Shown here: positions 1 through 27,800 of the stretch, one piece after another | How the letters are laid out: the number at the start of each line of letters is the position of its first letter | Position numbering within the stretch: position 1 is the stretch's first letter | Assembly: GCA_003249935.1 (NCBI GenBank) | Contig: QKHT01000093.1 | Location: 1-41,250, forward strand | DNA: 41,250 bases | From: Bacteroidota bacterium | Lineage (GTDB): Bacteria > Bacteroidota > Bacteroidia > Bacteroidales > UBA5342 | Reading direction: 5' to 3' | Notes under the pieces: model-generated | The model's input: the letters and a program-made list of their open reading frames with translations, nothing else | Told to the model about the DNA's origin: nothing | Databases searched by the model: none | Made by a program: the position numbers and the translations under genes

Positions 1-938
1 ACCCCATATCCGCCAGGCATGGTCAGGTGTGTCATGTTCTGCCCTAATACGGCTTTAGCCTGAAAAAACAGCATCTCTTTTTTATAGTTCAGGTAACCGA
101 CTGCCGATAATGAACGTAACAAGGCATCGGACAAATACTTTTGATTATCGGGACCAACCGGATTGATGCCTACGGTATACAAAGAGGGACGAATATATTT
201 TAATGAACCACCAACGCCTAATGTTAACGCATTATCGTTGAGTTCGAGACCTGCAAACATTTCGGGAATGGCCGCATTGCGACTGTAATCGTCTGTTTTG
301 GCCGAATAGGACATGGCAGCAGGAACCATTGAATCTATTTTTGCAAATCCATACGACTTATACTGAAACTCCGAAACCAAAGCACCGGTAAAGGTTAGTT
401 TTCCGGTTTTATAGTCGAGTCGAACCTGCGGCGATCGGTTAAAGGGCTGAAAAGGTGCGCCTGTATTGAGTCCGGCAACCAACGGAAAATTTTTGCCACC
501 CCAAAACGGGTGCCAGGTTTGCCCAACCAATAACGAAGCATGGTTCCAACCAAAAACCACATTCGCCTGACGAATCCTGAGTAAAGCGGTGTTAAGACCT
601 ACATCGCCGGCAAAGTCGGCTTCGATGTTGGCACTCGTTTTGGCATTGAAAATTTCCGGTCCGGCAACTTTTACGCCAAAGCGTGTAGCCATAGAACCCA
701 AATTATAGCTACCTGTTTCATTGATATCTTTATGGTTGGCATCATAAACAGCGGCCGTTGGTACGATCATAAACAACTCATTTGCCGCATTTAAACCTTT
801 ATGGGTATCGTAAAAAGATTCTACCCTTACAAAACCATAAAATTCGGCTTTATATTTTGGTGCCGCAGTGGTTTGAGCGACTAAACTTCCGGAGCATATG
901 ACTGCCGCAGAAGCAACTGATAATAATTGTTTCTTCAT
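1..938 (-). CDS. Outer-membrane porin-like protein, 3' end beyond window
   Basis: The reading frame is open from the ATG at 938 to the left edge, giving about 312 residues without a stop, so this is the N-terminal part of a longer protein. It starts with a signal peptide (MKKQLLSVASAAVICSGSLVAQ, cleavage after AQ), followed by alternating aromatic/polar strands typical of a Bacteroidota outer-membrane beta-barrel: FYGFVRVESFYD, a GQTWHPFWGG turn, and repeated short amphipathic segments. This suggests a porin-like channel of the kind usually annotated as 'porin' or 'outer membrane protein'; substrate unknown. It is a single gene facing away from 1202. A palindrome lies in its leader. I am confident of the gene and of a barrel, less so of the exact family. 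Confidence 0.8.
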   Translation of the reverse strand, partial: MKKQLLSVASAAVICSGSLVAQTTAAPKYKAEFYGFVRVESFYDTHKGLNAANELFMIVPTAAVYDANHKDINETGSYNLGSMATRFGVKVAGPEIFNAKTSANIEADFAGDVGLNTALLRIRQANVVFGWNHASLLVGQTWHPFWGGKNFPLVAGLNTGAPFQPFNRSPQVRLDYKTGKLTFTGALVSEFQYKSYGFAKIDSMVPAAMSYSAKTDDYSRNAAIPEMFAGLELNDNALTLGVGGSLKYIRPSLYTVGINPVGPDNQKYLSDALLRSLSAVGYLNYKKEMLFFQAKAVLGQNMTHLTMPGGYG

Positions 939-8293: not shown

Positions 8294-8366
8294 ATTTGGT
8301 TAATGCATCAAAGAAAGTTGTTTTTTTTTAATCACGCAACAAAACGATGCGAATGCCGCATTACCA

Positions 8367-8804: not shown

Positions 8805-9415
8805 TGCAGTATCTGTTTCATTTCAGCTATTTCCAATTGCAGGTCAAAACTAATAAAAACTTCATTCTTAACGCGAACCAAGCCTAAAAATTTTTCGGGT
8901 GGAACCATATTAAAATCCGAAAATTGAACCATTTTACCACCTGCAATCGCATACCTGTTTTCCCCTATTTTTTGTATCTCGCCCACTAAATGGTAAAGAT
9001 TGCTGCGACCTGCAAAACTGATGATGATGTTGGATAAATCTGCGACCCCCTGATTAAAAAGCAGACGCGTTTTGTCCATATTCAGTTTAACAGAGATATA
9101 AGGATACAAATCGGCTTTAACCATGTGTAAAAAGTCGCTTTTCATTAAGTGGTTACTACATTCAAATCGCTCTACCGGAATATTTAGCTCTATGTGTTCA
9201 TTATTGTTACCAGCCCATGCATTGTTCGATAAGTGGTTCGGTTCAATCCGATTATATTCTATATTAAACCTGTTTATATTGGTTTCACCAACTATGTTAA
9301 ACCGACTTAGCAAAATGTTTTTTATAAATACCGGTTTATATTCAGATTGAGAAGTGGCCAATTCTGATAAAGAGAAAAAGAAACCAATGACAACTATAAA
9401 AATCCTGATATTCAT
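8801..9415 (-). CDS. YceI-like exported protein
   Basis: A 204-residue protein with a signal peptide (MNIRIFIVVIGFFFSLSELATSQ). The rest has features of the YceI beta-barrel family, which bind isoprenoid or lipid-like ligands in the periplasm: NIPVERFECSNHLMKSDFLHMVKADLYPYISVKL corresponds to the family's 'm..h....L.a..yP.I.f' signature, and it ends with FISFDLQLEI. Similarity is weaker than for the second YceI protein at 10827. It forms a two-gene unit with the Rrf2 regulator, which suggests that the regulator controls its own partner. The biochemical role is unknown. Confidence 0.72.
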   Translation of the reverse strand: MNIRIFIVVIGFFFSLSELATSQSEYKPVFIKNILLSRFNIVGETNINRFNIEYNRIEPNHLSNNAWAGNNNEHIELNIPVERFECSNHLMKSDFLHMVKADLYPYISVKLNMDKTRLLFNQGVADLSNIIISFAGRSNLYHLVGEIQKIGENRYAIAGGKMVQFSDFNMVPPEKFLGLVRVKNEVFISFDLQLEIAEMKQILQ

Positions 9416-9426
9416 ATGGTGATCAT

Positions 9427-9442
9427 TTTACAATAATGTAAA
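9427..9442. promoter_or_regulatory. Candidate operator TTTACA-N4-TGTAAA
   Basis: A perfect 6+6 inverted repeat ends 11 nt upstream of the YceI-like start and directly abuts the porin terminator. Position and symmetry suit an operator for a dimeric repressor such as the Rrf2 protein encoded as the second gene of this unit. No exact TAnnTTTG box is visible beside it. Confidence 0.45.
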
Positions 9443-9470
9443 GCGGGAGAGCGATAAATCACTCTCCCGC
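9443..9470 (-). terminator. Terminator of the porin gene
   Basis: GCGGGAGAG (9443-9451) pairs with CTCTCCCGC (9462-9470). Inside the loop GAT and ATC can extend the stem after one mismatch. The stem is GC-rich and on the minus strand is followed by a moderately T-rich stretch. Confidence 0.7.
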
Positions 9471-9495
9471 CCATGCTATAAACTATGCGTAAAAA

Positions 9496-10779
9496 TTAAA
9501 ACGAAATAGCAGCTTCAACCATCATCCCTTTAAAACCGGAATTTTTTGTGTACGAACTGATGTCGTATTTCTGATTGACATATTCGGCTTTCATCATTAC
9601 GTTTGGTGTTAAATACCAACCACCGGCAACCTGAATACGATTTACGCTTTCTGAATTTTGGTTCGAAACGGTGTTGTAACGTGTGCCAACATAAAACTGT
9701 TTTTCGCAACCAAAATGGTACAACAGTTCGGCAGCTAACTGGTTGTATTTAAACTCCGGACCATCTTTTACGTTCGTGCCCTTTGTTGTTTCGTAGGTAC
9801 CAAAGAACTCAAGGCCTTTAAATTCGGCATAAGCATTTAACATGACCGAAGTTACTTTATAGGTTGCACCCGGGCCCCAATGACCGTTTGCGGCATTGGC
9901 CTTGATGTCGGTACCGGCCGAGTTAATGGCCATTACTGCGCCGGAAGCAATTGAATCGGGCACAAGAATCGAAAAATATCGTGCACCGGCACGATCCGAA
10001 CCATACAATGTACCACGGTGGTTGTTGCTATTATAGTACGGTGAAACAGTAAAACGAAGTTTTAAATCGTTATCCAATTTGGTTTCATATCCAAATTTGC
10101 CATAAAAGGCCAGTTCCGATACCATATCGTAAGTATCAAAATTCTTTGTTGTGTTGTTAAATCCAACCAAGGCAGGGTTCAAAGTTCCGCCTGTTAATGC
10201 ACCCATTGCAATCCAACCATTATTACGATACATTAATTCTAATGCAGGTGCAGTCATAAAGGCCTCCATAATATAGTTTTCGACAAATTTGTTGGCGGTT
10301 ACATGGCCGTTATCCGAACGACGAAAGTGTGCATCGCCATAGTTTACTTCCATTACACCGGTTTTAAGTGTAAGGTTCTGCATTAATCCATCAACAAACG
10401 ATGAGTGCATAAACGGCATTGCATCTATAAGCAAATAACCATCCTTAACCCACGATTCGTTATGGTGACGCGACGACAAATAGGTGGTAAGTACCACTTT
10501 CATACCCGGAGCTAAATCTGAAGAAATAACCATATTGGCAGCAGGAAGGTTAACCCCCGAACCCAGAGGCATAAAACCCGGTTCATGATTTACGCCACCT
10601 AACTTAATAATTGGCGAACCCACATTATCAATGGCCTGATATTGAAGGGCAAAATCTCCACCAAGGGTAACCTTAACCTTGTCGAAATCGGCACTGTTAA
10701 GTTTTGGAAGCTCAAATTGCTGGCCAAACATTGTAATTGCAGCTGCAAACGAGGCAACTGTTAATAAAACTCTCTTCAT
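9496..10779 (-). CDS. Outer-membrane beta-barrel porin
   Basis: A 427-residue outer-membrane protein. The signal peptide is MKRVLLTVASFAAAITMFGQ; I chose the ATG at 10779 because it gives a standard n-region, though an ATG two codons earlier (10785) is possible. The mature part shows barrel strands throughout (LTLGG-like GGDFALQYQ, LRFTVSPYY, LNAYAEFKGLEFFGTYE, RIQVAGGWYL, MMKAEYVNQKYD) and ends in a C-terminal Phe (AAISF), the usual BAM signal. It resembles phosphate-selective or general porins of Bacteroidota; the substrate is not evident. It lies between YceI (upstream, 47 nt) and the YceI-like/Rrf2 pair and is closed by its own terminator. Confidence 0.83.
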   Translation of the reverse strand: MKRVLLTVASFAAAITMFGQQFELPKLNSADFDKVKVTLGGDFALQYQAIDNVGSPIIKLGGVNHEPGFMPLGSGVNLPAANMVISSDLAPGMKVVLTTYLSSRHHNESWVKDGYLLIDAMPFMHSSFVDGLMQNLTLKTGVMEVNYGDAHFRRSDNGHVTANKFVENYIMEAFMTAPALELMYRNNGWIAMGALTGGTLNPALVGFNNTTKNFDTYDMVSELAFYGKFGYETKLDNDLKLRFTVSPYYNSNNHRGTLYGSDRAGARYFSILVPDSIASGAVMAINSAGTDIKANAANGHWGPGATYKVTSVMLNAYAEFKGLEFFGTYETTKGTNVKDGPEFKYNQLAAELLYHFGCEKQFYVGTRYNTVSNQNSESVNRIQVAGGWYLTPNVMMKAEYVNQKYDISSYTKNSGFKGMMVEAAISF

Positions 10780-14339: not shown

Positions 14340-14363
14340 AAAACTGAGATTCCATTGCTCAAG

Positions 14364-14406
14364 AAATGCACAATTTTGGCTGTAAAAAAGCTGAAATTGT
14401 GCATTT
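14364..14406 (+). terminator. Terminator of the RNA helicase gene
   Basis: AAATGCACAATTT (14364-14376) and AAATTGTGCATTT (14394-14406) form a 13-bp perfect stem, with an inner GGCT/AGCT extension and a T-rich tail (TACTTTTT). Confidence 0.85.
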
Positions 14407-14414
14407 TACTTTTT

Positions 14415-14736: not shown

Positions 14737-15627
14737 ATGAAAATTGAAATAAAAGCACTCGAAAAAAAATACGACAACGGCTTTAAGGCACTGAAGGGTA
14801 TAGACTTAGAAATTACTGAAGGCATGTTTGGGCTATTGGGCCCCAATGGTGCCGGAAAATCGACACTCATGAAAATCCTTGTGACCATGCAGGATTACAC
14901 CACAGGTTCAATATTAATAGATGGCAAGGATATCAGGAAAGAACGTCGTGAAGTACGAAAAATAATCGGTTATCTGCCACAGGATTTTCGGTTCTTTACG
15001 CGATTAAAAACCTGGGAATTTCTTGACTATGCCACCGGATTGTCGGGCATGTTTTCGCGCAAACAACAACGCGGCAAAGTGGACGAAATGCTTGCTAAAG
15101 TAGGCCTTTACGAAGTTCGCGATCGCTACGCTCAGGATTTGTCGGGCGGCATGAAACGCCGACTCGGCATCGCTCAGGCATTAATTACAAACCCCAAAAT
15201 GCTTGTTGTGGATGAACCAACCACCGGACTCGACCCCGAAGAGCGAATAAGATTCCGGAATTTACTTTCTGAGCTTGGAAACCAGGATACAATTATCATT
15301 TTATCGACACATATTGTGGGCGACATTTCGAGTACCTGTAACCAAATGGCCGTATTGCACGAAGGCGAAATTGCCTTTGTTGGTTCGCCCGAAGAACTTA
15401 TAGCCAGAGCAAAAAACAGTGTGTGGCAGTTACACGTTTCAAATAGCGAGTACGATTTATTGAAAGAGAAATACCCTGTAATTTCGACGATACCGGCCGA
15501 CAATGGTTGGGAAATACAACTTGTGGGTGATGATATTGAGGGATTTGAAGGCAAAAAGATTAAACCAAACCTCGAACATGCCTATGTACATTTAATGGAA
15601 TACAAACTAAATGCCTGGCAATTATGA
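14737..15627 (+). CDS. ABC transporter ATP-binding protein (NBD1 of the hybrid operon)
   Basis: A 296-residue ATPase of the ABC-2/drug-export type. Motifs: A-loop Tyr in KKYDNGFKALKG, Walker A GPNGAGKST (K41), Q-loop YLPQDF, signature LSGGMKRR (from 135), Walker B MLVVDEPTTGLDP (E160 catalytic), H-loop STHI (H192). A C-terminal extension of about 80 residues (VWQLHV onward) follows the core. I chose the ATG at 14737; a TTG 60 nt upstream would add a Cys-rich tail not expected in the family. The ATG of the permease overlaps its stop (ATGA). It is closely similar along its length to the ATPase domain fused to the second RND pump, including the RIRFRNLL segment and the C-terminal extension, so both came from one ancestor. 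Confidence 0.93.
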   Translation: MKIEIKALEKKYDNGFKALKGIDLEITEGMFGLLGPNGAGKSTLMKILVTMQDYTTGSILIDGKDIRKERREVRKIIGYLPQDFRFFTRLKTWEFLDYATGLSGMFSRKQQRGKVDEMLAKVGLYEVRDRYAQDLSGGMKRRLGIAQALITNPKMLVVDEPTTGLDPEERIRFRNLLSELGNQDTIIILSTHIVGDISSTCNQMAVLHEGEIAFVGSPEELIARAKNSVWQLHVSNSEYDLLKEKYPVISTIPADNGWEIQLVGDDIEGFEGKKIKPNLEHAYVHLMEYKLNAWQL

Positions 15628-18600
15628 GTTTTATAAACAATATAAATACAATTTCGCGCAACGAAGGCAAACTATTGTGGCGTAGCTGGTTTTTTAGGGT
15701 ATATGCCATATTGTTATTGCTTTTTCTGGTGTTCTTTAGTACCATGTATTTTGCAATTCCAAGTCAGGCCCGTTGGAGCCATAAGGCTTTGGAGTCGATG
15801 TTTGCGTATGTTCCGATGTTTTTTTTGAGTATTACGCAATCGTTGGTCGCTGTATTTTTGGCTTCTGATTTTTTAAAGCGCGATAAAAAACTGGATACGA
15901 CCGAAGTTATCTATGTACGGCCCATGTCGAACCTCGAATACGTTTTTGGTAAAACACTTGGGATATTAAAAGTTTTTGTGCTCTTCGATTTGGTTGTGCT
16001 GCTGGTTGGCGTGGTATTCAACGTAATAGTACCGGATGTTCAGTTGGATATTAAACTCTATTTTTATTATCTGTTGATATTGGTTATTCCGGGGTTGGTA
16101 TACTCGTTGGGCTTATCGTTTGTATTGATGTCGGTTTTAAAGAATCAGGCGGTTACTTTTTTGGTTATTCTTGCAATTTTTGGATTTTCGTTGTTTTATT
16201 TTTCGGGCGATTATTACAATGCTTTCGATTTTTCGGGCATACTGCAACCCGCTCTTTATTCGTCGATTACAGGTTTTGGTAATGGATGGGATCTTTTACT
16301 TCAGCGGGGAGCCTATTTTGTATTGGGTATTGGTTTTATAATGTTTACCATCTACTTTATGGTACGATTGCCGAATAAAGCGTGGTTAAAAAGGATGAAC
16401 CTATTTATCGCCATTTTGGTCACATCCATTGGCGGAGTACTCATGGCCGGATTTTATTCTCTCGAATCGGGAAAAGATAAGCGCAGGCTGGAGTATTTGG
16501 CCAGTAACGACCGGCATACCAATTCGCCTGTGTTTTCCATAGAAAAAAACGAGATGAACCTCATTCACAAAGGCAGTAAAATTGATGTAGAATCTACCAT
16601 TATCGGTTCAAACCAAAACGAAGGAACCATAGATACACTGTGGTTAGCCCTAAACCCCGGTTTTAAAATTAGAGAAGTAAAGCATGGCAGCGTTGATTTA
16701 AAATACAAAACAGACAAACACTTGATTGGATTGTTGCCTTTGGGAGGCGTTAAACCGGGCGAATCGTTTAGTTTTACAATAAAATACAGTGGACATCCGG
16801 TTGACGAAATATGTTATTTAAACACTTGGGACAAACCCTTTTATACAAGCAAAAACAATGACATGGCAAAGCTTGCCCAGCGGTATAGTTTTGTTAATGC
16901 GGATTATGTGTTACTTACGCCGGAGTCTTTGTGGTATCCTATTGCCGGAACTACATATAATACCATTAACCATTTGCATCGTGTGCCAGCCTTTACTTTG
17001 TTTAATTTATCGGTTCGAACCGATACTTCGTTGATGGTAATTAGCCAGGGGAAGCAGGTAAAAAAAGAGTTGGCAATTAATTTCTTAAACAAACAACCAT
17101 TGGATGGACTAAGTTTAATAATTGGCAAATACGAAAAGAAAATACGTACAATTGACAAGGTTGATTATGCGATATATAACATAAAGGGGCATGATTTTTA
17201 CAGTCGGTATTTCCCGAATCTGGGCGACAGTATAGTGGATGCTATAAAGGGATTTAAGAGTGATTATGAGAGGAATATAGACCTGACATATCCTTTTAAA
17301 AGATTTAGTATGATAGAAGTTCCGGCACAATTTTCGGCACAGCAGCAATTACTAACGGTGGCATCAGAGATGGTTCAACCCGAAATGGTGTTAATACCCG
17401 AAAAAGCTTACAATATTAGCGGAGCCGATTTTGCACGGTATATCAAATATGAGAAAGATCGAAATGACAATAAAAACAAACTTCCCAAGGATTTGGAGTA
17501 TGAGCGATTCCGGCGATTTTTGTTTTCGACATTTTACAGTGGGATGCAAAGAAATTCGGCAGGAATAAGAGTTGAAGGGATGGATCAAGCAGGATTTTTA
17601 TCCGGAGCTTCAACTTATACCGGTAACCAACAAAATATTTTTCCGCTCTTTTATACCCGAGTAACGGCATTTTATTCGCACAATGTTCCGTTTATGAATA
17701 ATATCATCGAAACCTACCTTCGTGATGACTATCAGTTTTCGTTTTTATCCCGAACAGGCGGAGGCGTAGACAATAAAGAACTTGCCAATTTAGCACTAAA
17801 GGATTCGTCGCTGGCATCTATTCTCAGTAATCCCGAACAGCGCAAAATTGTGGCCGATGCGATAGGTCAAAAAGGAAATTACCTTTTTGCGCTCTTACAG
17901 CAAAAGGTTACAAAAGCGGCGTTTGATGACTTTTTTTACTATTTTCTCGAAGACAATCAATTTAAAGTAATAAGCGAAAAAAAGTTTTCGGAAGCAATGA
18001 ATGCCGAACTCAAGTTTAATCCCGATAGTTTAATAAACAGTTGGAGCGAACGCACCGGCGTAGCATCGTATATCTTTAACACACCCAAGGTAATTGAGAC
18101 CAGGGATGACGAAGGTCAGGTATTTGTGGTAAAGTTTTCGGCTTGGAATAAAAGCAGTAACACAGGATTACTTTCTGTATCGTTAAGAGCAGGACGTGGT
18201 GGTCCCGGCAGTGGATCGGGAGAAGAACAAAGATTCTACACATTAAAACCAGGCGAAACACACGACTATTCGATTGTAATGTATGACCAACCACGTATGA
18301 TGACCATTAATACAGTAATGTCGACCAACATACCAATGATTAGAAGTTTTTTCCTCAGAAACACAGAAAAATACAAAAGATATCCGATAGAAGAGTCGGA
18401 TAAATTATCGGTAACAACATTAAGGAGGGAAAACGACAATGAAATTATTGTTGACAATGAAGACAAGGGTTTTAAACGAAATTCCTCGAAAACAATCAAT
18501 AAACTCCGCAAATTTGCCGATTCGCAAAAAGAAGAGAACAAAATAAAATATGGTTCAATTTCTTCCTATTACAACCCCGATTTTTGGCGCGCCGTATCAC

Positions 18601-19037
18601 ACACATCGTTTTATGGCACAGATATTTGCTCAGGATATTACACCAAAGGAGGCGATGGAAAATTAGAAGCCACCTGGCAGGCCAAACTAAAAGAACCGGG
18701 CTACTATAATATTTACACCTATATTCCGCTCGGTGTGATGTACAGTTTTGATCGCGGCCGCTCATCGGGTGGAAGCAGAGGCAGTAGTGGAGACAGAGGG
18801 AGTGATCGTGGAGGTCCGAAACTTGAAGACGACGGCACGGAATATAATTACACAATTTATACTGCTGATGGCAAGGAACAGCTAACCTATACCATTAATC
18901 GCGACACAAAAGACGGATGGAATCTGTTAGGTTCGTACTACTTGTCGGGCGACTCGTGCAAAGTTGTATTGAGCAACAAGTCGAATGGTAAACGAATTTT
19001 TGCTGATGCAATTAAATGGGAAAGGAAAGAACAGTAA
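15624..19037 (+). CDS. Giant ABC-2 permease with extracytoplasmic M1-like region and golvesin-C-like domain
   Basis: A 1137-residue protein. Residues 1-285 form an ABC-2-type permease with about seven membrane helices (for example 22-43, 62-85, 107-136, 230-250, 263-281). Residues 290-980 are a large soluble region, presumably periplasmic, whose central part (MVQPEMVLIPE, an acidic helical stretch, NIIETYLRDDY) recalls permeases fused to M1-aminopeptidase-like modules in Bacteroidota; no HExxH zinc motif is present, so it would not be a peptidase. Residues about 985-1134 match the golvesin C-terminal/xanthan-lyase-associated domain: YYNIYTYIPL, NYTIYTADGKEQLTY, DGWNLLGSYYLSGDSCKVVL, FADAIKWER. 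A Ser/Gly/Arg/Asp-rich loop (about 1043-1069) interrupts this domain. Start overlaps NBD1. It likely pairs with NBD1. The domain calls beyond the permease are from pattern memory. Confidence 0.8.
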   Translation: MSFINNINTISRNEGKLLWRSWFFRVYAILLLLFLVFFSTMYFAIPSQARWSHKALESMFAYVPMFFLSITQSLVAVFLASDFLKRDKKLDTTEVIYVRPMSNLEYVFGKTLGILKVFVLFDLVVLLVGVVFNVIVPDVQLDIKLYFYYLLILVIPGLVYSLGLSFVLMSVLKNQAVTFLVILAIFGFSLFYFSGDYYNAFDFSGILQPALYSSITGFGNGWDLLLQRGAYFVLGIGFIMFTIYFMVRLPNKAWLKRMNLFIAILVTSIGGVLMAGFYSLESGKDKRRLEYLASNDRHTNSPVFSIEKNEMNLIHKGSKIDVESTIIGSNQNEGTIDTLWLALNPGFKIREVKHGSVDLKYKTDKHLIGLLPLGGVKPGESFSFTIKYSGHPVDEICYLNTWDKPFYTSKNNDMAKLAQRYSFVNADYVLLTPESLWYPIAGTTYNTINHLHRVPAFTLFNLSVRTDTSLMVISQGKQVKKELAINFLNKQPLDGLSLIIGKYEKKIRTIDKVDYAIYNIKGHDFYSRYFPNLGDSIVDAIKGFKSDYERNIDLTYPFKRFSMIEVPAQFSAQQQLLTVASEMVQPEMVLIPEKAYNISGADFARYIKYEKDRNDNKNKLPKDLEYERFRRFLFSTFYSGMQRNSAGIRVEGMDQAGFLSGASTYTGNQQNIFPLFYTRVTAFYSHNVPFMNNIIETYLRDDYQFSFLSRTGGGVDNKELANLALKDSSLASILSNPEQRKIVADAIGQKGNYLFALLQQKVTKAAFDDFFYYFLEDNQFKVISEKKFSEAMNAELKFNPDSLINSWSERTGVASYIFNTPKVIETRDDEGQVFVVKFSAWNKSSNTGLLSVSLRAGRGGPGSGSGEEQRFYTLKPGETHDYSIVMYDQPRMMTINTVMSTNIPMIRSFFLRNTEKYKRYPIEESDKLSVTTLRRENDNEIIVDNEDKGFKRNSSKTINKLRKFADSQKEENKIKYGSISSYYNPDFWRAVSHTSFYGTDICSGYYTKGGDGKLEATWQAKLKEPGYYNIYTYIPLGVMYSFDRGRSSGGSRGSSGDRGSDRGGPKLEDDGTEYNYTIYTADGKEQLTYTINRDTKDGWNLLGSYYLSGDSCKVVLSNKSNGKRIFADAIKWERKEQ

Positions 19038-19066
19038 GAAAAAGAATTTGAGTAACAGAATAAAGA

Positions 19067-20581
19067 ATGAATAAATATTTGAAAATGAATAAAATATACG
19101 CCATTTTGGCATTTGGCGCATCACTTTCGGTTGTGCATGCACAAGACATTCTTACGCTTGAGAAAGCCGTAGAACTGGCTGCCCAAAACAGTCCGGATTT
19201 AAAACAATCGGAATTAAGATACGAACAAAGTGACTGGAATCTGAAAGCGCAGAAAGCGCTTCAGAAATCGAGTTTTGCATTAGGCATTGATCCGTATACC
19301 TACTCCAAGACACAACGATTCGATGATAAATTTTCGGACTGGTACACAACCGAATCGCAGTCGATTGGGGGTGATTTTTCTATCCGTCAGCCACTAATGG
19401 CTACCGATGGACAATTCGATTTTTCCAATAGTTTATCCTACATGAGCAGGGCGACTACCCGCTCGGTATTAAGGGGGAATGATACCATATCGGAAACTAC
19501 TACAAACAACTCATATGCCGACATTCTTAAACTCACATTTACACAACCACTGTTTACGTATAACCAGCAAAAGTTAACCATGCGGACGTTGGTTCTGAAT
19601 GCTGAAAACAGCCAGATTGATTATAATTTGAAAAAACTTAATCTGGAAGTAAACGTAGCCAATTCGTTTTACGACATCTATTCGCAACAAATGGTCATAG
19701 ATGTGGCTACAGAAGAGGCAAAAAACAATCAGGAGAGTTACGATATTATAAAAAACAAAGTTGATGCAGGGTTGGCCGCATTGGGCGAATTGTACCAGGC
19801 CGAACTAAACCTCGCATCCAGTAAATCATCGCTTCAAAACAAAAAGGTTCAACTCGAAAACATGAAGGATAATTTTAGAGTATTAATTGGTATGCCATTG
19901 AATTACGAGTTTAAAACTGTTGGCGAAGTGACCATGAAGGAAGTTACTGTAAACCTTGATAAAGCTGTAAACTTTGCACTCGAAAACCGAATGGAGTTGC
20001 GTCAGCGAAAAATAGATTTGGAAAAAAGCCAGTTCGATCTGATTAAAGCCAAAGCCATTAATGAATTTCGCGGTGACTTAAAAGGGTCGATTGGCATTTC
20101 GGCTAATTCGGGTTCATTAAATACATTATTCGACAATCCGGAACGTACACCCACATTTGGTTTGAGTTTATCGATTCCGTTATTCGATTGGGGATACCGT
20201 AAGGCCAAAGTAAAAGCAGCAGAGATATCAAGAACGCTTACCGAAATGAACATTCAGGACGAAAAACTAACGATTGAAACAACAATCAGAAAAAGTTACC
20301 GAAATCTGCAAAACCTGTTAAGTCAGATTGAGATAGAACGACAGAATGTAAAAAACGCAGAATTAACTTACCAGATTAATCTCGAAAAGTATAAAAATGG
20401 CGATTTGACTTCGATGGATTTACAACTACAACAAAATCAGTTATCTACCAAAAGAATAAACTTTACACAATCGCTCATAAACTACAAAATAGAGCTTTTG
20501 AACATGAAGATTCAAACGTTGTACGATTTTGAACGAAATACCCCGGTAGCCAATTTAAATTTATTTGTTAAACCAGAATAA
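19067..20581 (+). CDS. TolC-family outer-membrane efflux channel
   Basis: A 504-residue outer-membrane factor. The signal peptide ends in VVHAQ, just before DILTLEKAVELAAQNSPDLKQ, the standard TolC N-terminus. Two repeats of long coiled-coil helices follow, with SFYDIYSQQMVIDVATEEAK and the link KNKVDAGLAALGELYQAELNLAS in the first half and KYKNGDLTSMDLQLQQNQLS in the second; the strand motif FGLSLSIPLFDWGYRKAK is typical. It should form the trimeric exit duct for this operon. An ATG six codons later (19085) also gives a good signal peptide. It starts 29 nt after the permease gene and ends 10 nt before the adaptor gene. Confidence 0.92.
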   Translation: MNKYLKMNKIYAILAFGASLSVVHAQDILTLEKAVELAAQNSPDLKQSELRYEQSDWNLKAQKALQKSSFALGIDPYTYSKTQRFDDKFSDWYTTESQSIGGDFSIRQPLMATDGQFDFSNSLSYMSRATTRSVLRGNDTISETTTNNSYADILKLTFTQPLFTYNQQKLTMRTLVLNAENSQIDYNLKKLNLEVNVANSFYDIYSQQMVIDVATEEAKNNQESYDIIKNKVDAGLAALGELYQAELNLASSKSSLQNKKVQLENMKDNFRVLIGMPLNYEFKTVGEVTMKEVTVNLDKAVNFALENRMELRQRKIDLEKSQFDLIKAKAINEFRGDLKGSIGISANSGSLNTLFDNPERTPTFGLSLSIPLFDWGYRKAKVKAAEISRTLTEMNIQDEKLTIETTIRKSYRNLQNLLSQIEIERQNVKNAELTYQINLEKYKNGDLTSMDLQLQQNQLSTKRINFTQSLINYKIELLNMKIQTLYDFERNTPVANLNLFVKPE

Positions 20582-20591
20582 TATTAATACA

Positions 20592-21665
20592 ATGTATACT
20601 TTTAAAATCACCACATTTGCAGCACTCATTGTTTTAGCTACATCGTGCGGCCAAAAAGATGTTACGATTAAAGAATCGCTCACCGTACCGGTTACCGTGC
20701 GCCAGTTAAAACCAACCACCATTGCGTCCATTGTCAATTCAACAGGCACAATTCTGCCAAAAGGTTCGGTAACGATTACATCGGAAATGGCAGGCAAGTA
20801 TTTTTTACAAAAAAACAGCCGCACCGGAGAACTTTATAAGATGGGCGATTTGGTGAACAAAGGCGACATCATTGTAAAATTTCAGGATGCCGAATATGAA
20901 AACGGGATTAAAATAGAATCGATTAAGTTGAACCTTGATATTACAAAACAAGAATTTGACAAACAACAATCGTTGTATGATAAAGGAGGTGTGACCCTGC
21001 GCGAAGTAAAAAATGCAGAGGTTAGCTATATTAATGCAAAGTATGCCTATGAAAATGCGAAACTGAATCTCGACAAAATGGTAGTAGTAGCACCAATTTC
21101 GGGTGCAATTACACAACTTCCCTATTACACGCAAGGCACCGATGTAGAAGCTAAACAACCAATGTTTCAGATTATGGATAACAAAATGCTCTATTTGGAA
21201 GTTAGTTTGCCTGAGAAGTACTATAACACCGTTTATAATGGCTACGAAGTATATCTTACCAATTATACGCTGCCCGAAGATACACTTACAGGAGAAATTA
21301 CACAAATTGCTCCGGCCATAGATGCCACTTCGCGCACCTTTAAAGCCATCGTAGAGGTAAAAAACAAAAAGCAGTTATTTCTACCCGGAATGTTTGTAAA
21401 AGCCGATATTGTGCTCGAAAAAAAGACCGATGCACTGGTGGTTCCAAAAGAAATACTATCAGGACGTGGCAATTCGTTCAATGTTTTTGTGGTAGAAGAT
21501 GGCGAAGCTAAAGAACGCCGCGTACACACCGGCATTGAACAGGATAACAAAGTGGAAATTATAGATGGGCTTAGTGTCGAAGATCGTTTAGTAATAAAAG
21601 GGTACGAAACATTAAAAGATAAGGCAAAAGTTCGTGTTTTGGAAGAATCGAAAAACGAGAATTGA
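20592..21665 (+). CDS. Membrane-fusion (adaptor) lipoprotein, RND/HlyD type
   Basis: A 357-residue periplasmic adaptor. The start at 20592 gives a lipoprotein signal with lipobox LATSC (C19), so the protein is lipid-anchored. Next come the barrel-sandwich/lipoyl half (IVNSTGTILPKGSVTI, GDLVNKGDIIVKF), a short helical hairpin (KLNLDITKQEFDKQQSLYDKG and KNAEVSYINAKYAYENAKL), the second lipoyl half (MVVVAPISGAI) and the beta-barrel domain (AIDATSRTFKAIVEVKN, LFLPGMFVKADIVL). It should link the inner-membrane pumps with the TolC-type channel. It is the only adaptor in the operon although both an ABC transporter and two RND proteins are present, so it may be shared. It lies 41 nt before RND1. Confidence 0.92.
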   Translation: MYTFKITTFAALIVLATSCGQKDVTIKESLTVPVTVRQLKPTTIASIVNSTGTILPKGSVTITSEMAGKYFLQKNSRTGELYKMGDLVNKGDIIVKFQDAEYENGIKIESIKLNLDITKQEFDKQQSLYDKGGVTLREVKNAEVSYINAKYAYENAKLNLDKMVVVAPISGAITQLPYYTQGTDVEAKQPMFQIMDNKMLYLEVSLPEKYYNTVYNGYEVYLTNYTLPEDTLTGEITQIAPAIDATSRTFKAIVEVKNKKQLFLPGMFVKADIVLEKKTDALVVPKEILSGRGNSFNVFVVEDGEAKERRVHTGIEQDNKVEIIDGLSVEDRLVIKGYETLKDKAKVRVLEESKNEN

Positions 21666-21706
21666 TTTTCTACATCGGCAATGGTGAATAAAAAACAGAT
21701 AATCGA

Positions 21707-24700
21707 ATGAAAAGCATCACGCAATTTGCGGTAAAATATCCGGTAACAGTAGCCATGATAGTCATGGGAACGTTGTTATTGGGCTACATCTCATTTGGCA
21801 AATTAGGAATGGATTTGTTTCCAAACCTCAAAAGCCCCAAAATTTATGTAGAAGTAAAATCGGGTGAACGCCCCCCCGAAGAGATGGAAGAAGTCATTGT
21901 AAACAAAGTAGAGGCAGTGGCCATCCGTCAGAGCGATGTTGTAAATGTAACCTCGGTTTCCACAGTTGGTTCAGCCCAAATAGTGGTTGAATATGCGTGG
22001 AGAAAAGACATGAATGAAGCCTTCCTCGATTTACAAAAATCTTTGGCATCGTTTGGTCAAAGTAGTGATGTAGATGAACTTACCATTTCTCAACACGACC
22101 CCAATGCCACGCCAATTGTTACCATTGCACTTACAAACAACGACATAAAAGATTTGAATGCATTGCGAAGAACGGCCGAAGGGTACATTCGGAATGAACT
22201 GATACGATTGGAAGGTATAGCGGAAGTAGAGGTTGCAGGGGCCGATCGCCAGGAAGTTTTGGTTGAAACAGACCCGAAATTACTGGAAGCATACGGTTTG
22301 TCGCCCAACGATGTGGCTTCGAAAATAAAGAGTTTTAACCAAAACGTATCGGGTGGTTCCGTGGTTGAAAAGGGTCGTCGCTATGTGGTTAAAGGATTGA
22401 GCCAGATTACGGCACTTGAAGATTTGAGGAATGTAATTCTGAAAGTACAACGGCCCACGGCGGCCCAACTTAAAGCCGGAGCCATTCAATCGGTGGTTCG
22501 GATTTCTGATGTAGCTAAGGTAACGCTAAACACCACTGAGCGTGATAATTCAGTGTTTTTAAATGGTGAGCCATGTATTGGATTGTCGGTATATAAAGAA
22601 ACGCGTTACAATACAGTTCAGGCTGTAAAAAATCTACAGGACGACCTTAAAAAAATTGAAAAAGCACTACCGGGTTATAAATTTACAATTGTACAAAATC
22701 AGGGCAATTTCATATCATCGGCCATTGGTGAAGTGGAATCGAGCGCAGGATATGGGATGATTCTTGCCGTGTTTGTACTTATTTTGTTCTTGCGCAGTTT
22801 CAAAACCACGTTGGTTGTAAGCATCGCAATGCCAATATCAATTATAGCCACATTCACGCTTATGTACTTTAACCATCTAACGCTTAATGTGATGACATTG
22901 GGTGGATTGGCTCTCGGAGCGGGTATGCTGGTTGATAATGCCATTGTGGTAATAGAAAATATTTTCAGGTTACGAACCAATGGCATGTCGGTTCGTGAGG
23001 CTGCGGTAGAAGGCACTTCGCAGGTAGGTGGTGCGGTATTTTCATCGACACTAACGACTATCGTTGTGTTTTTACCAATTGTATATCTTAATGGTGCTTC
23101 GGGCGAATTATTTCGCGAACAAGCCCTTACGGTTACCTACTCATTGTTGTGTTCACTCATTGTAGCAATATTGGTTATTCCCGTGCTTTACGACCGTTTT
23201 ATTGGTTCGAAAAAAAAGGTTATTATGGCCGAACCAATAAAAACTGGTGTTTCGTTCAATTTTTATCGTAAGATATTAGGCAATATACTGAACCACAAAA
23301 CGGCAATTATTGGTAGTTCGTTGGTATTGTTGGTTGCCGGTTATTTTATGGCCCGAACTTTAGGAAGTGAATTTATGCCGGTTTCGGCCGATAGAAGCTT
23401 TTTGGTTGATGTTAAAATGCCTGAAGGAACAGGTCTCGACCGTACCGTTGGTGCCTCGCAAGGTGTGGTTAATTTTATTTCGGCACTGGCTCCCGACGAA
23501 ATTGAGTTTTCGTATAATGTAGCTGGCCCGGCAGCCGGCGAAATTGGTGGCGAACAATCGGTATTTCTCGACCAGAATACAGCACTGATAAAAGTGATGC
23601 TCAAAGCGGGTTCAAACAAAAGCACCTCAACTTTAATGAAAGCGATTACCGCTCATTACAACGGTTTGCAGGACATTGAGATCCGATGTCGGCAGGAAGA
23701 GTCATCACTTCAATCGGTTTTGGGAACAGAAGAAGCACCAATGGTTGTTGAAATATCGGGCGAAGATGCTGATGTTCTCGAAAGTTTGACCAAAGAAGCT
23801 GTTGAAAAATTGAGTGATGTGCCCGGATTAATTGCCTTAGAAACATCGATAGAAGGCGGTGCACCCGAAGTAGAAATAAACATTGACCGTTACAGAGCCG
23901 GCATTCTCGGATTAGATGTAAGCGCAGTGGTAGGAGCTATCAAAGAAGCACTTAGCGGCACCGATGCCGGTCAGGTGGATTTAAATGGCGATATTGACCA
24001 GATTGTAATTAAGAACAGAGCCATTTCGCTGAACGATATCGCTTTAATCAATATTAAATCGGGGTCGGGATATGTGAGTATTGGCGAAGTAGCAAAAATT
24101 AAAATCGGATCGGCAGCCAAACAGGTTTTGCACAACAATCAGAACCGCGTAATAAAGGTAATGGCAGGAATTGCACCCGGCTATATTTTGGACAAAGTGG
24201 CCGAAAATGTCAATGAAGTGATGGCCACAATCGATTTTCCGGCCGAATATAAATACAATCTTACCGGACAGGAGGAAAAAAGACGTGAAGCTACCGGCAG
24301 CCTGACATTTGCGTTACTCCTTTCATTGATATTGGTATATATGGTTATGGCTTCGCAATTCGAGCATTTGGTTCATCCCTTTGTTGTATTACTAACGGTG
24401 CCATTGTCGATTATTGGCGGACTGATCCCCTTTTGGTTAACCGGTTCACCCCTTAACATGATGGCTTACATTGGGTTAATTATGCTTGGTGGCATTGCAG
24501 TAAACAACTCAATTATATTGGTTGATGCCATCAATCAGTTTAGACGAGAAGGTGTAGAATTGAAAGAAGCCATTATTAATGCCGGAGGTAACCGGATAAG
24601 ACCAATATTAATGACCACATTAACAACAATACTCGGCATGCTGCCAATGACATTTGGATTTGGCGAAAGTGCTTCTCTCAGAGCCCCGATGGCTTGGGCT

Positions 24701-24805
24701 GTAATTGGTGGGTTGATGGTCGCAACGATTATTTCGCTGGTAGTAATACCATGTGTTTACTATGTATTCAACCGCCGGTATAAGCATAAAACTTTAGATG
24801 TATGA
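21707..24805 (+). CDS. RND efflux permease subunit 1 (AcrB/MdtB superfamily)
   Basis: A 1032-residue pump protein with the complete RND plan: TM1 near residues 10-30, a first periplasmic porter loop, TM2-6 from about 340, a second loop, TM8-12 from about 860. The TM4 motif is GAGMLVDNAIVVIENIFRL, keeping one of the paired proton-relay aspartates (D410) with Asn at 411. In TM10 the position of the AcrB lysine is Asn (N933, in GGIAVNNSIILVD), a state also seen in other RND subfamilies. The stop overlaps the start of the second RND gene (ATGA), so the two are made together and may form a mixed trimer as MdtB and MdtC do. Confidence 0.93.
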   Translation: MKSITQFAVKYPVTVAMIVMGTLLLGYISFGKLGMDLFPNLKSPKIYVEVKSGERPPEEMEEVIVNKVEAVAIRQSDVVNVTSVSTVGSAQIVVEYAWRKDMNEAFLDLQKSLASFGQSSDVDELTISQHDPNATPIVTIALTNNDIKDLNALRRTAEGYIRNELIRLEGIAEVEVAGADRQEVLVETDPKLLEAYGLSPNDVASKIKSFNQNVSGGSVVEKGRRYVVKGLSQITALEDLRNVILKVQRPTAAQLKAGAIQSVVRISDVAKVTLNTTERDNSVFLNGEPCIGLSVYKETRYNTVQAVKNLQDDLKKIEKALPGYKFTIVQNQGNFISSAIGEVESSAGYGMILAVFVLILFLRSFKTTLVVSIAMPISIIATFTLMYFNHLTLNVMTLGGLALGAGMLVDNAIVVIENIFRLRTNGMSVREAAVEGTSQVGGAVFSSTLTTIVVFLPIVYLNGASGELFREQALTVTYSLLCSLIVAILVIPVLYDRFIGSKKKVIMAEPIKTGVSFNFYRKILGNILNHKTAIIGSSLVLLVAGYFMARTLGSEFMPVSADRSFLVDVKMPEGTGLDRTVGASQGVVNFISALAPDEIEFSYNVAGPAAGEIGGEQSVFLDQNTALIKVMLKAGSNKSTSTLMKAITAHYNGLQDIEIRCRQEESSLQSVLGTEEAPMVVEISGEDADVLESLTKEAVEKLSDVPGLIALETSIEGGAPEVEINIDRYRAGILGLDVSAVVGAIKEALSGTDAGQVDLNGDIDQIVIKNRAISLNDIALINIKSGSGYVSIGEVAKIKIGSAAKQVLHNNQNRVIKVMAGIAPGYILDKVAENVNEVMATIDFPAEYKYNLTGQEEKRREATGSLTFALLLSLILVYMVMASQFEHLVHPFVVLLTVPLSIIGGLIPFWLTGSPLNMMAYIGLIMLGGIAVNNSIILVDAINQFRREGVELKEAIINAGGNRIRPILMTTLTTILGMLPMTFGFGESASLRAPMAWAVIGGLMVATIISLVVIPCVYYVFNRRYKHKTLDV

Positions 24806-27800
24806 ATTTTTTATTGAACAGAAGGGTTGCAATTTCGATGCTTTTTCTGGCACTTTCGTTGCTGGGATACATATCGTATAAGCAATTACCTCTCGAAATA
24901 TTTCCGAATGCCGATTTACCACAGCTTTATGTTCAGGTACGATCGCAGCAGGAGGTTACGCCCGAATATCTTGAGCAAAGTGCCGTAATACCGCTCGAAG
25001 GTGTTATTAGCAGCTTAGATGGGGTTGAACGCATTGAATCCTCGGTAGGGGTAAAATCGTGTCGCATTTTGGTTGAACTGGAAAAGAATGCCGATCTCAA
25101 ATATCTGTTTCTGAAACTCACGCAGGAAGTGGCCGCCGCCGCAGCTACGCTACCGGACGGCATTACTGCATCGGTACAAAAAAATGACATGACTCAAAAG
25201 AATAATATTCTGATGAACCTTCAGGTAAGGGGTACGGGGGGTATTAACAGAGTTAGGGAATTTACCGACCAGAAAGTTATTCCCGAACTCGAGAACATTG
25301 ACGGTATTGCTGGTGCAATGCCTTTCGGTGGCCAGCAAAAGTCGGTTGAAATTACACTGAACCGAGCAGCCTGTGAGGCACATAATATAAATCTTGACCG
25401 CGTTAGGCGTATTATTTCGCAAAACATGCAAGTAAAGGCTTATAGTGGTTCGGTAAAAGATGGCAATAAACGGTATTTTGCATTTGTAAATGCTGAATAT
25501 GCTGATGTAACTCAAATTGAGGATTTGACCGTAAATAATAGTGGTGTTCGTTTGCGCGACATTGCAACGGTATATTATGGCAGTAAGGAAGAAACCTCGT
25601 ACAGCAGGGTAAATGGAAAAGAATCGGTATCGGTAGCACTCGTTTGCGAAAGTGGGGCCAACCAAATTGATATTTCGCATAAAGTAAGAGCTATAATCAG
25701 CCGTCTCAACCAAAAATTTGAGCAAAGTGATATTGAAATCGTTGTAGATGTGGACCAGGCCGAGGTTATGGAAAAAAATCTCGATGAGATTATTAATCTG
25801 GCACTTTCCGGTGCTTTGCTGGCGATATTTATTATGTGGATATTTTTGCGCAATGTACCCTTGGTGGCTGTTGTCGCTTTATCCATACCGTTTTCGGTTT
25901 TTCCGGCGTTCAATCTGTTTTACGGATACGACATTAGTATTAACAGCCTTACATTGGTAGGTATTGCTTTGGCAATCGGCATGCTTTTAGACAACAGTGT
26001 GGTGGTACTCGAAAATATTTACCGGTTAAAATCGCGTGGTGCAACAGCTTCGGATGCTGTAACCCGTGGAACATCTGAAATATGGAAACCGGTAATGGCA
26101 TCGACACTAACAACCATTGCAGTGTTTTTACCTTTTGTATTTTCAGGAAACTATTTGGTGCGATTATTTGGCACTCACATAGGCATTTCAATTATCTCTA
26201 CGCTTTCGGTTTCGTTGGCGGTGGCATTGTTGCTCATTCCAATGGCGGTGTACGCGGTGATGAGTTTCAGAAACCACAAAATGATTAACCTGAGTAAGGT
26301 GTCGCTCGATCAACGTCCCGTTCGTATATATTTACTGCTGCTTAAAACCGCCCTACGTAACCCGGTTGGCACTATTGTAATTGCTTTGTTACTCTTTTTT
26401 GTATCCATTCTTGGTAGTCTATCGGTAAGTATCAATAGCAAAAAAGCACTCGAAGATAAGAATTTAGCCGTATTCATTACCATGCCTGTCGGTTCAACCC
26501 TGGAGAAAACAGACTTAGTTGTACGCGATGCAGAAAACCGGCTAAAAGAGATAAAAGGCGTATCGGATGTTGTGGTACGGGTTGAAGAAGAGGAGGCTCA
26601 GGTTACACTTAAACTTGTAGATGATTACGAAAAAATAAGCGGCCGAAACTATGGCGAAATAAAAAATGACATTGAAAACCGGTTAAAGGGATTATCAGCC
26701 GATTATTCGTTTACCGCCACATCGGGCAGTTACGCCAAACAGGGCGGAAGCCGGAATACCGGTTCTACCGGGTTGCAGAATATGATGGGGGTGGGCGAAG
26801 ACCAGGAGTATATTGTTGTAAGGGGTAACGACTTTGAGATGATGACTGCCGTGGCCGAAGACCTTGAGTATTTTTTGGGCGAACTCGACGTGATATCCAG
26901 TGCCCGAAAGAATGTAAAAGATAATCAGCCCGAGGTGCATATTAGTTTCGATACCGAAACAATGACAGCAGAAGGCATTGCTTACAATCAGGTTGTAAAT
27001 GCACTTAGTTCGTTTCAGAAACAAGTATCGAGCGGAGTAAATTTTAAACAAGGTTCAAACCAATACGAAATTGTACTTAAATACAACGACTTAGTTAATG
27101 AAACAAAACCAAAAGACAAAACACTTGCCGAACTTCAAACATTATCGGTAAATGACAATGCCGATGTAATATCGCATGAGCTTCAATCGTTTTCGGATAT
27201 ATTTTTTGGTAAAGGATTGCGTTCTATCGAAAGGGTTAATCAGGAAAAGCAAATTGAGGTTCAATATAAATTTAATGCCGATGTAAATAAGTCCAAAGCA
27301 TTGCTCGAATCGGCACGTGACGAGGTAGATTATGTGATAAGTGCATTGAACCTTCCGCCGGGTATTGCCGTAGAGGTTATACGCGAGGAATCGGACATTA
27401 GCGAATTTTACACATTAATAGAAATTGCCGGCCTTTTGATTTATATGATTCTGGCTGCCGTTTTCGAATCGTTTATTACCCCGTTTGTGTTATTATTAAG
27501 TGTACCACTTGCAGCAATCGGTTCATTCTTGTTGCTTATTATCACCGGCAACTCATTATTTAATGCCAATACTCTTACCGGTTTTTTAATTTTACTGGGG
27601 GTAGTGGTAAATAATGGCATTCTGCTAATCGACATTACAAACAATTTACGAAAAAACGGATACCGCAGAGAAAGAGCCATATTAACGGCCGGCTTATCAC
27701 GTTTACGGCCCATCCTGATTACAGCTTTGACTACGGTTGTGGCGATGATCCCAATGGCACTCGGACGCTCGGAATATGTAAGCGTTATAGGTGCACCTTT

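Follow-up and report, generated by a model that had tools for sequence, protein, structure and literature searches.

RND exporters and ABC exporters count as distinct energy classes, with nothing in common but the adaptor and the channel. Within tripartite assemblies of the RND kind, MdtB functions in an MdtB/MdtC heterotrimer, and in the ABC-powered MacAB–TolC system the permease bears a periplasmic domain. Fusions of an ABC-2-type permease with an M1 aminopeptidase form a further group of relatives, presumably those with the NCBI product name 'ABC transporter permease/M1 family aminopeptidase'. In this study, we analysed a stretch of 41,250 nucleotides (the window) on contig QKHT01000093.1 of a Bacteroidota bacterium (Bacteroidales; UBA5342; assembly GCA_003249935.1), in which the permease gene at 15624–19037 is the second member of a seven-gene operon (14737–30206) encoding, in this order, an ABC ATPase, the permease, a TolC-type channel, an adaptor, an RND pump, an RND–ABC ATPase fusion and a small putative permease. 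The fusion joins a proton-pump-type exporter to an ATP-burning domain in a single protein. Among the titles and abstract openings listed for open-licence PubMed Central articles, no description was found of an RND–ABC fusion, of an M1 domain on an ABC permease or of this operon, and term-matched passages of a review on tripartite pumps (PMC8277102) contain no mention of an RND–ATPase fusion.

The seven genes all run in the forward direction, and their junctions are either overlaps or gaps of 10–41 bases. Upstream, a terminator-like hairpin of 19 pairs found by a pattern scan (14363–14407, forward strand) lies 3′ of a DEAD-box helicase gene and parts it from the operon; only the long stem of this hairpin is notable, because 15 such sites were found against a shuffle mean of 16.7. 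The first gene (14737–15627) encodes a stand-alone ABC ATPase of 296 residues (NBD-A; Pfam ABC_tran, 119.1 bits), the start of which was read from the sequence as the ATG at 14737 (the ORF tool gave a TTG at 14677) and the stop of which overlaps the ATG of the permease gene by 4 bases. The permease (Perm-A) is followed by a TolC-type outer-membrane factor of 504 residues (19067–20581; Pfam OEP, 146.4 bits) and a periplasmic HlyD/MFP adaptor of 357 residues (20592–21665; Pfam HlyD_D23, 68.8 bits), which starts at the ATG at 20592 (TTG at 20565 by the ORF tool). The operon thus holds, with its HlyD and OEP domains, both the adaptor and the outer-membrane factor of a tripartite efflux system. Next come an HAE-1-type RND permease of 1032 residues (RND1; 21707–24805), the fusion of 1556 residues (RND2–NBD-B; 24802–29472), the start of which overlaps the RND1 stop by 4 bases, and a membrane protein of 239 residues with several hydrophobic segments (Perm-B; 29487–30206), which by its conserved position is a putative second ABC-2 half.

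Across the loci examined, which are mostly from Bacteroidota, the set of genes hardly varies. Searching genome contigs with the single Perm-A protein confirmed no relative; searching with a Perm-A alignment gave 395, the best 80 of which were kept and, because they were chosen by score and the other 315 left out, are biased towards the architecture of the window. Cultured environmental organisms are represented among the 80 by Prolixibacter bellariivorans ATCC BAA-1284, Mangrovibacterium marinum DSM 28823 and Sunxiuqinia elliptica. Plasmid records contained no Perm-A relatives. Conservation was counted in two locus sets, the first being the loci of the 80 relatives kept, at loci with a Perm-A ORF of at least 1000 residues and for each gene where the contig reaches far enough; the sets overlap (L028 and G016:C6 are equally long at 23200, as are L030 and G009:C10 at 44196), so that the counts hold per set and are not independent. 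Under these rules NBD-A is kept in 69/69 loci of the first set and 20/20 of the second, the TolC-type channel in 72/72 and 31/32, the adaptor in 68/68 and 27/28, and RND1 in 67/68 and 27/28; for the second set, the RND2–linker fusion is kept in 27/28 and Perm-B, in position, in 24/25. Two loci depart from the pattern: L103, from a KSB1 bin, lacks an RND gene behind the adaptor, and the Perm-A copy of L150 is an orphan. Across 393 genomes of the order, that of the window included, Perm-A and the fusion linker occur together in 47, Perm-A alone in five, where in every case the contig ends before the linker, and the linker alone in four; the system is scattered, being found in 52 of the 393. No cargo gene common to all loci was seen. 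A same-strand ORF of 170–260 residues lies within 900 bases of NBD-A in 24 of the 66 first-set loci with enough upstream sequence, and its size suggested a TetR regulator; none of the ten scanned among these 24 candidates is TetR, and 11 of the 24 are mutually related proteins of about 195 residues with a putative signal peptide. By eye, only the ORF of L077 reads TetR-like among the unscanned candidates.

Perm-A consists of 1137 residues and contains both DGWNLLGSYYLSGDSCKVVL and FADAIKW. Its membrane part (residues 1–290; 15624–16493) reaches a best ABC-2 Pfam score of 24.2, below the cut-off of 27, and ABC2_membrane_2 is matched by 22 of the 27 family members scanned at E ≤ 0.01 (best E = 3.4e-10). 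Hydropathy windows merge into seven membrane segments, the last ending by residue 278, and the predicted structure (pLDDT 83.9, pTM 0.82) is soluble beyond about residue 297, with long N-terminal helices followed by strands. With a cytoplasmic N-terminus, seven segments up to residue 278 would place the soluble part on the extracytoplasmic side. PDB sequence searches gave no match at E ≤ 1 with residues 292–1137 and no useful match with the Perm-A profile. By sequence, the M1 Pfam score of Perm-A is 17.4 bits against a cut-off of 27.7; in the predicted structure, the middle region (residues ~293–914; 16500–18365) has an M1 fold, matching the M1 aminopeptidase 7zyf_A over 457 residues (VIA Z 22.0, rmsd 5.4; model residues 293–914) and 8cgp_B in Foldseek (E = 1.0e-18). 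The HExxH zinc motif is absent from Perm-A of the window on direct reading, from all 79 relatives with a Perm-A ORF of more than 1080 residues (that of L086 is cut by the contig end) and from all 34 proteins of at least 980 residues in the second locus set, which makes it very probable that the module is catalytically dead. M1 proteins were also sought in 118 genomes of the phylum as active ABC–M1 fusions for comparison, and none was picked out.

The C-terminus of Perm-A (residues ~985–1137; 18576–19034) is assigned to the golvesin-C class by Pfam, by a profile match and by the strands of the model. Golvesin_C (PF25275) covers residues 1068–1133 with 44.6 bits (cut-off 31.6), and the only solved chain at E ≤ 1 is 6f2p, residues 922–1038 of a Paenibacillus xanthan lyase (E = 2.7e-9). 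The segment at residues 1037–1072, around a Gly/Arg-rich loop (residues 1043–1063; 18750–18812; pLDDT < 50), varies from 11 to 44 residues in length among 49 sequences. The domain is present in every complete relative examined, namely in 79/79 and 33/33 homologues, and PF25275 is matched at E ≤ 0.01 by all 33 C-terminal domains scanned, which came from 33 of the 49 alignment rows (a further sub-alignment took 27 of the 49). Profile matches ending near position 1044 had hinted at a subgroup that lacks the golvesin domain, but all 12 such proteins, taken in full, proved to carry it. Membrane part, M1-like region and golvesin domain all recur in the 79 complete homologues, which were drawn from the best-scoring 80 of the 395 relatives, and this recurrence argues that the three-part architecture is not due to chance. 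The first-pass annotation had read the gene as an ABC-2 permease with a long extracytoplasmic part, an inactive M1-peptidase module in the middle and a golvesin-C-like end of the kind found in polysaccharide lyases. These readings agree with the results above, residues 985–1134 resembling golvesin C-termini at the sequence level in both Pfam and profile matches; the operon, the RND–ABC fusion and the occurrence of the golvesin domain in every complete relative examined had been missed. The annotation also pointed to a glycan or glycolipid substrate, which may be correct but has indirect support: domains of class IPR033803, which includes golvesin and a xanthan lyase, are reported to have bound N-glycans in two Bacteroides lectins (PMC9166713); IPR033803 and PF25275 are probably the same domain. 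The C-terminal domain of the PL8 xanthan lyase (6f2p), the Cbeg4 and Cbeg5 lectin domains and that of Perm-A would on this basis all be of golvesin-C class (PMC9166713). The former belong to secreted enzymes or lectins, whereas in Perm-A the domain is attached to an inner-membrane permease and has the variable Gly/Arg-rich loop.

The fusion protein is encoded by a single ORF that matches ACR_tran over its full length (523.2 bits; RND1, 719.9 bits; cut-off 28) as well as ABC_tran (100.1 bits). The RND part is followed by two extra membrane helices (residues ~1026–1100; 27877–28101; model and hydropathy), the first strand of NBD-B (residues 1101–1112, IVISIKNLVKIY; 28102–28137), which is placed by alignments and is where the structural match starts, an insert of about 165 residues (1113–1277; 28138–28632), for which the model shows about four membrane helices, and the remainder of NBD-B (residues 1278–1556; 28633–29469). 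NBD-B is accordingly not a continuous domain, being split between its first and second strands, as indicated by alignments and the structural match. Its fold is nearly complete only when the strand before the insert is included (LptB, 4p33_A, 231/235 residues, Z 25.8, rmsd 3.0; range 242–691 of the model matched). The fusion model is of moderate quality (pLDDT 77.5, pTM 0.57), and its VIA matches barely test the RND helices and the insert; hydropathy helix counts for the insert are noisy. Walker A, the Q-loop, the signature, Walker B with the catalytic Glu and the H-loop are all kept in 28/28 sequences. The two halves are each recognizable as ordinary family members, and the same genome encodes another RND fusion, with an OEP domain (contig C132), as would be expected if two independent pumps, ABC and RND, merely shared an operon and its regulation and the fusion were a neutral joining of neighbouring genes without functional coupling. 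We consider this improbable, given that the fusion is retained at nearly all loci, that Walker A is reached in frame in 54 of the 60 RND2–linker ORFs of more than 1280 residues in the first locus set (the remaining six stop where the locus does) and that the insert splits NBD-B at the identical place in 27/27 full-length fusions, with a size by motif spacing of 158–218 residues in 25 and 102 in two. Across such a range of taxa, a neutral fusion would be expected to break sometimes.

Among the matches listed, the solved chain nearest in sequence to RND1, and likewise to RND2, is MdtB. At the positions D407, D408 and K940, which we take to be the proton relay in AcrB numbering, and in the register of the MdtB alignment, RND2 has Asp at D407 in 28/28, Asp at D408 in 0/28 and Asn at K940 in 28/28 sequences; RND1, for which the window protein alone was examined, shows the same motifs. 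Proton coupling of the usual type is doubtful in both pumps, because the residues aligned with D408 and K940 are missing in RND2 and RND1 of the window is alike. These replacements, and the covalent link between NBD-B and RND2, which runs through about six extra membrane helices and in the model has about four of these within the NBD, would suit a machine in which ATP hydrolysis by NBD-A and NBD-B, acting via the extra helices, gates or drives an RND trimer that has lost part of its proton relay, Perm-A and Perm-B being accessory or regulatory. Such an arrangement appears unlikely: the Asp at D407 is invariant, and L198, another RND protein of the genome, likewise has Asp-Asn at D407/D408, so that loss of D408 is no special mark of the fusion system (the other RND proteins of the genome were checked on the forward strand of 14 loci, four of which gave the first motif). 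Moreover, D87 and D91 of Perm-A, invariant in 49 sequences, are located in conserved charged loops between membrane helices, and these loops seem to resemble the transmission interface of an ordinary ABC transporter.

Within the genome, NBD-A has its nearest paralogue in NBD-B (44%, E = 1.3e-69, residues 15–289), the next among the 30 matches being at 37% (E = 7.1e-42). Perm-B is only weakly identifiable as an ABC-2 permease: that of the window has no Pfam match, ABC2_membrane_3 is matched by 3 of 26 family members (best E = 3e-5), and hhalign against the Perm-A profile gave E = 0.11 in one run and nothing better than decoys in a second; profile searches of PDB sequences and NCBIfam returned nothing useful. 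Among solved chains, the best NBD matches in sequence are ABCA lipid transporters (best 60 of 527 matches), and the structural matches include LptB, MlaFB chains and NosDFYL. Together with the scattered occurrence in the order, these matches could point to an envelope-maintenance or lipid-trafficking device rather than primarily an exporter, with the dead M1 module and golvesin domain anchoring to surface glycans or sensing the state of the envelope. We regard this as very unlikely, since a TolC-type channel and adaptor in nearly all loci argue for expulsion and NBD-fold matches do not discriminate function.

The architecture of the seven-gene system is well supported; its coupling and substrate are inferred. 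In the reading that we favour, with moderate confidence, a heterodimeric ABC exporter docks onto an RND pump of tripartite type, giving one seven-component, envelope-spanning exporter. Perm-A and Perm-B would pair as an ABC-2-type heterodimer that draws its energy from NBD-A and the fused NBD-B, the latter being half of the ABC engine, and because NBD-B is physically part of RND2 this engine would be tied to the RND1/RND2 trimer, which would work with the adaptor and TolC-type channel; a trimer of, for example, two RND1 and one RND2 would give one NBD-B per pump. The substrate may be amphiphilic or bear a glycan, and the ABC part may carry it through the inner membrane or as far as the membrane's outer face, where the M1-like/golvesin region would receive it in the periplasm and hand it to the RND trimer for expulsion. 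Conservation of the seven genes, co-occurrence of Perm-A and the linker, the intact NBD-B motifs, the kinship of NBD-A with NBD-B and the closeness of both RND proteins to MdtB favour this docked exporter; it is weakened by the weakly identifiable Perm-B, the departing loci L103 and L150, the moderate fusion model, the missing relay residues of RND2 and the lack of a cargo gene at all loci. More tentative is the proposal of one pump that couples ATP and proton energy. Its RND trimer would contain an ABC ATPase of its own, interrupted by membrane helices; NBD-B and its partner ATPase might drive both the ABC-2 heterodimer and the RND cycle, so that one complex moves substrate from the cytoplasm to the outside. 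If true, such a pump would constitute a new exporter class instead of enlarging the ABC or RND family. With a conserved RND–ABC protein across wide taxa, two questions become open to direct test: can ATP drive or gate RND transport, and can cargo pass from an ABC exporter to an RND pump within one assembly? The dead M1 fold and golvesin domain offer two isolatable soluble pieces for cargo fishing.

Perm-A and the ABC-2/M1 aminopeptidase fusions presumably have in common an ABC-2-type membrane part at the N-terminus and, after it, a large M1 fold outside the cytoplasm; the Perm-A family differs in that HExxH is absent from all relatives checked, in its extra golvesin-C domain and in its place in an RND operon. 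The RND–OEP fusion of contig C132 resembles RND2–NBD-B in joining an RND permease to another transport component in one ORF, the partner being a C-terminal outer-membrane-factor (channel) domain in the former and an ATPase in the latter. Like the window operon, MdtABC–TolC combines two different RND permeases with an adaptor and a TolC-type channel; in the window, however, RND2 has an ABC ATPase fused to it along with about six additional membrane helices, the D408 and K940 equivalents are missing, and the operon further encodes a second ATPase and two ABC parts that resemble permeases. With MacAB–TolC the operon shares an ABC ATPase that is accompanied by an adaptor and a TolC-type channel, as well as a permease with a predicted periplasmic domain. 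It differs in having no MacB-type domain (at E ≤ 0.1, none of the seven proteins matches a MacB or FtsX family of Pfam), in that its permease is of ABC-2 type and in possessing RND permeases.

The permease gene Perm-A (15624-19037) is the second of seven genes that run in a single direction from 14737 to 30206 in the order NBD-A (an ABC ATPase), Perm-A, a TolC-type channel, an adaptor, RND1, RND2 fused to a second ATPase (NBD-B) and Perm-B, a putative second ABC-2 half. The NBD-A/Perm-A and RND1/RND2 pairs overlap by 4 bases, and the remaining intergenic gaps measure 10-41 bases when the ATG at 20592 is taken as the adaptor start. Upstream lie a DEAD-box helicase gene and then a 19-pair terminator-like hairpin, and downstream a PAP2-family gene on the opposite strand.

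The Perm-A frame is intact, encodes 1137 residues and contains both motifs quoted in the first-pass annotation, which had described an ABC-2 permease with a long extracytoplasmic region, an inactive M1-like middle and a golvesin-C-like end. Perm-A alone scores below the Pfam cut-offs for two ABC2 models (23.1 versus 27.2; 20.9 versus 27) and for Peptidase_M1 (17.4 versus 27.7 bits), and these weak scores are backed by family matches and predicted structure. ABC2_membrane_2 is matched by the membrane parts of 22 of the 27 family members scanned; in a model predicted from a 49-row alignment (pLDDT 83.9, pTM 0.82), residues 293-914 match M1 aminopeptidases (7zyf_A: Z 22.0, 457 residues, r.m.s.d. 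5.4), and Foldseek matched the model to 8cgp_B (E 1.0e-18). The M1-like reading of the middle region is thus upheld by the predicted fold, and its HExxH motif is absent from Perm-A, from 79 relatives longer than 1080 residues in the first locus set (relatives from the genome_contigs collection) and from 34 of at least 980 residues in the second genome set (the order sample, which overlaps the first). Elsewhere in the window's genome, one further place matches Peptidase_M1, above the cut-off. Merged hydropathy windows give seven membrane segments ending by residue 278; given a cytoplasmic N-terminus, the remaining ~850 residues would lie outside the cytoplasm, in line with the proposed placement.

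The golvesin-C-like assignment of the C-terminus also holds (Golvesin_C, 44.6 bits versus a cut-off of 31.6), and PF25275 is matched by 33 of the 33 family C-terminal domains scanned. At E <= 1, the profile of these domains finds a single solved chain, 6f2p (residues 922-1038, E 2.7e-9), in a region at the end of a Paenibacillus xanthan lyase; a review (PMC10881899) gives the enzyme of entry 6F2P as a PL8 xanthan lyase from P. nanensis. The IPR033803 domain class takes in golvesin and a xanthan lyase, and in two Bacteroides lectins such domains are reported to bind glycans with a common Gal-GlcNAc-Man-Man motif (PMC9166713); because of this reported lectin-domain binding, glycan binding by the Perm-A domain is plausible by analogy. 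Within the domain, residues 1043-1063 form a Gly/Arg-rich loop with pLDDT <50; the wider segment is 11-44 residues long across 49 sequences and contains 294 Gly and 191 Arg among 1020 residues in total. One further place in the same genome matches Golvesin_C.

A search of 59 relatives (the window's own genome makes 60) gave five full-length Perm-A homologues, a fragment in G002 that lies at the start of a contig, and, in further genomes, weak matches to the permease part only; each of the five stands in the same operon, cut within RND2 by a contig end in two. A scan of the genome_contigs collection gave 395 Perm-A relatives. Among the best 80 of these, 79 have a complete gene, and 69 of the 79 carry the label Bacteroidota (Marinifilum and many Prolixibacteraceae among them), while two are assigned to Latescibacterota and one each to Krumholzibacteriota, Ignavibacteriota and Chlorobiota; five have no phylum label, three of which are KSB1. 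Perm-A occurs in 52 of 393 genomes of the order sample (own included) and in 6 of 395 of the phylum sample. The Perm-A tree, counted by a quick method that left out six rows without a group, needs four label changes over five phylum groups; since this is the minimum possible, wide recent transfer need not be invoked. The window's row has a long branch (1.58).

Counted only where contigs reach, the operon is kept almost throughout: NBD-A in 69/69 loci of the first set and 20/20 of the second, the channel in 72/72 and 31/32, the adaptor in 68/68 and 27/28, RND1 in 67/68 and 27/28 and, in the second set only, the RND2-linker fusion in 27/28 and Perm-B in 24/25. Every missing gene was traced to L150 or L103. 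L150 (13370-16819) is an orphan second Perm-A copy with a golvesin domain and without the operon, which the same genome holds on another contig (L139). In L103, a KSB1 bin, NBD-A, Perm-A, TolC and adaptor genes (3611-10490) are followed by housekeeping-type genes, with no RND gene within the locus; this may be a real variant or a binning or assembly effect. Searched alone, the fusion linker was found in 51 of 393 order genomes: 47 have Perm-A and linker, five Perm-A only and four linker only. In all five Perm-A-only genomes (G016, G137, G183, G188, G276) the contig ends before the linker. As for the linker-only genomes, G002 has its Perm-A fragment on a separate contig, G013 is 61% complete and G262 has the linker at a contig edge; the fourth is G328.

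The fusion protein P0002 (24802-29472) carries a full ACR_tran match (2-1024) and an ABC_tran match (1281-1425) in one frame. Of 60 RND2-linker frames longer than 1280 residues in the first locus set, 54 run in frame to Walker A and six stop at the locus end. The opening strand of NBD-B (IVISIKNLVKIY, 1101-1112) precedes an insert and the next (FKALKGVSLEI, from 1278) follows it. A model of residues 860-1556 from a 36-row alignment (pLDDT 77.5, pTM 0.57) gives the insert about four long helices, where hydropathy counts are noisy; it superposes on LptB (4p33_A) over 231 of 235 residues (Z 25.8, model range 242..691) and fits whole NBDs only with the early strand counted in. Judged by motif spacing, the insert is 158-218 residues long in 25 of 27 fusions and 102 in two (L140 and L145, both of family f79), which offer a natural test of its role. 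The ATPase motifs of NBD-B are intact in 28/28, and within its genome NBD-A is clearly closer to NBD-B than to any other match (E 1.3e-69 versus 7.1e-42 for the next; 30 matches, self included). This RND-ATPase fusion, its NBD split after the first strand by an insert with membrane helices, lies outside the Perm-A gene and is more unusual than Perm-A itself.

The RND2 proton-relay register was taken from an MdtB alignment, with positions given in AcrB numbering (D407, D408, K940). The Asp aligned to D407 is kept in 28/28; at D408 Asp is found in 0/28, and at K940 Asn in 28/28. RND1 of the window carries the same motifs. Among other RND proteins of this genome, L198 has Asp-Asn at the first relay motif and L196 Asp-Asp. 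Contig C132 (L191) encodes an RND permease and an OEP/TolC-type domain in a single frame of 1494 residues, and a second RND frame on C154 (1465 residues) may resemble this fusion.

Just upstream of NBD-A, 11 of 66 loci examined in the first set (L042, L050, L053, L054, L061, L064, L066, L074, L078, L080, L085) encode a ~195-residue protein with an apparent signal peptide. These proteins are mutually related, some with weak Por_Secre_tail/DUF3244 matches, and all 11 loci fall in one 23-row branch of the Perm-A tree; the protein is a candidate partner, possibly a cargo or accessory in that branch. No cargo gene common to the loci compared was seen. In L047, L041, L075 and L093, and similarly in L081 and L094, the operon is preceded by an additional gene for an ABC ATPase and by one for a ~225-240-residue protein with an N-terminal hydrophobic stretch.

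The operon's pair of related ATPases and its two permease-like proteins would fit one heterodimeric ABC exporter. In the simplest reading, all parts would form a single assembly, one ATPase being built into RND2: the ABC part would bring cargo to the inner membrane's outer face, the M1/golvesin region of Perm-A would receive it and the RND-adaptor-TolC part would expel it. Against this reading count the difficulty of identifying Perm-B by sequence and the lack of a shared cargo gene among the loci. With two proton-relay positions lost, ATP may also drive the RND part; at least one of these losses also occurs outside this system, in L198. No description of the seven-gene ABC-RND arrangement was found among the listed titles and abstract beginnings of open-licence papers. 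MdtBC is a two-gene RND arrangement, which RND1 and RND2 resemble. Every domain of the system is a member of a known family, and what appears to be new is the arrangement of ABC and RND exporter parts of known kinds.
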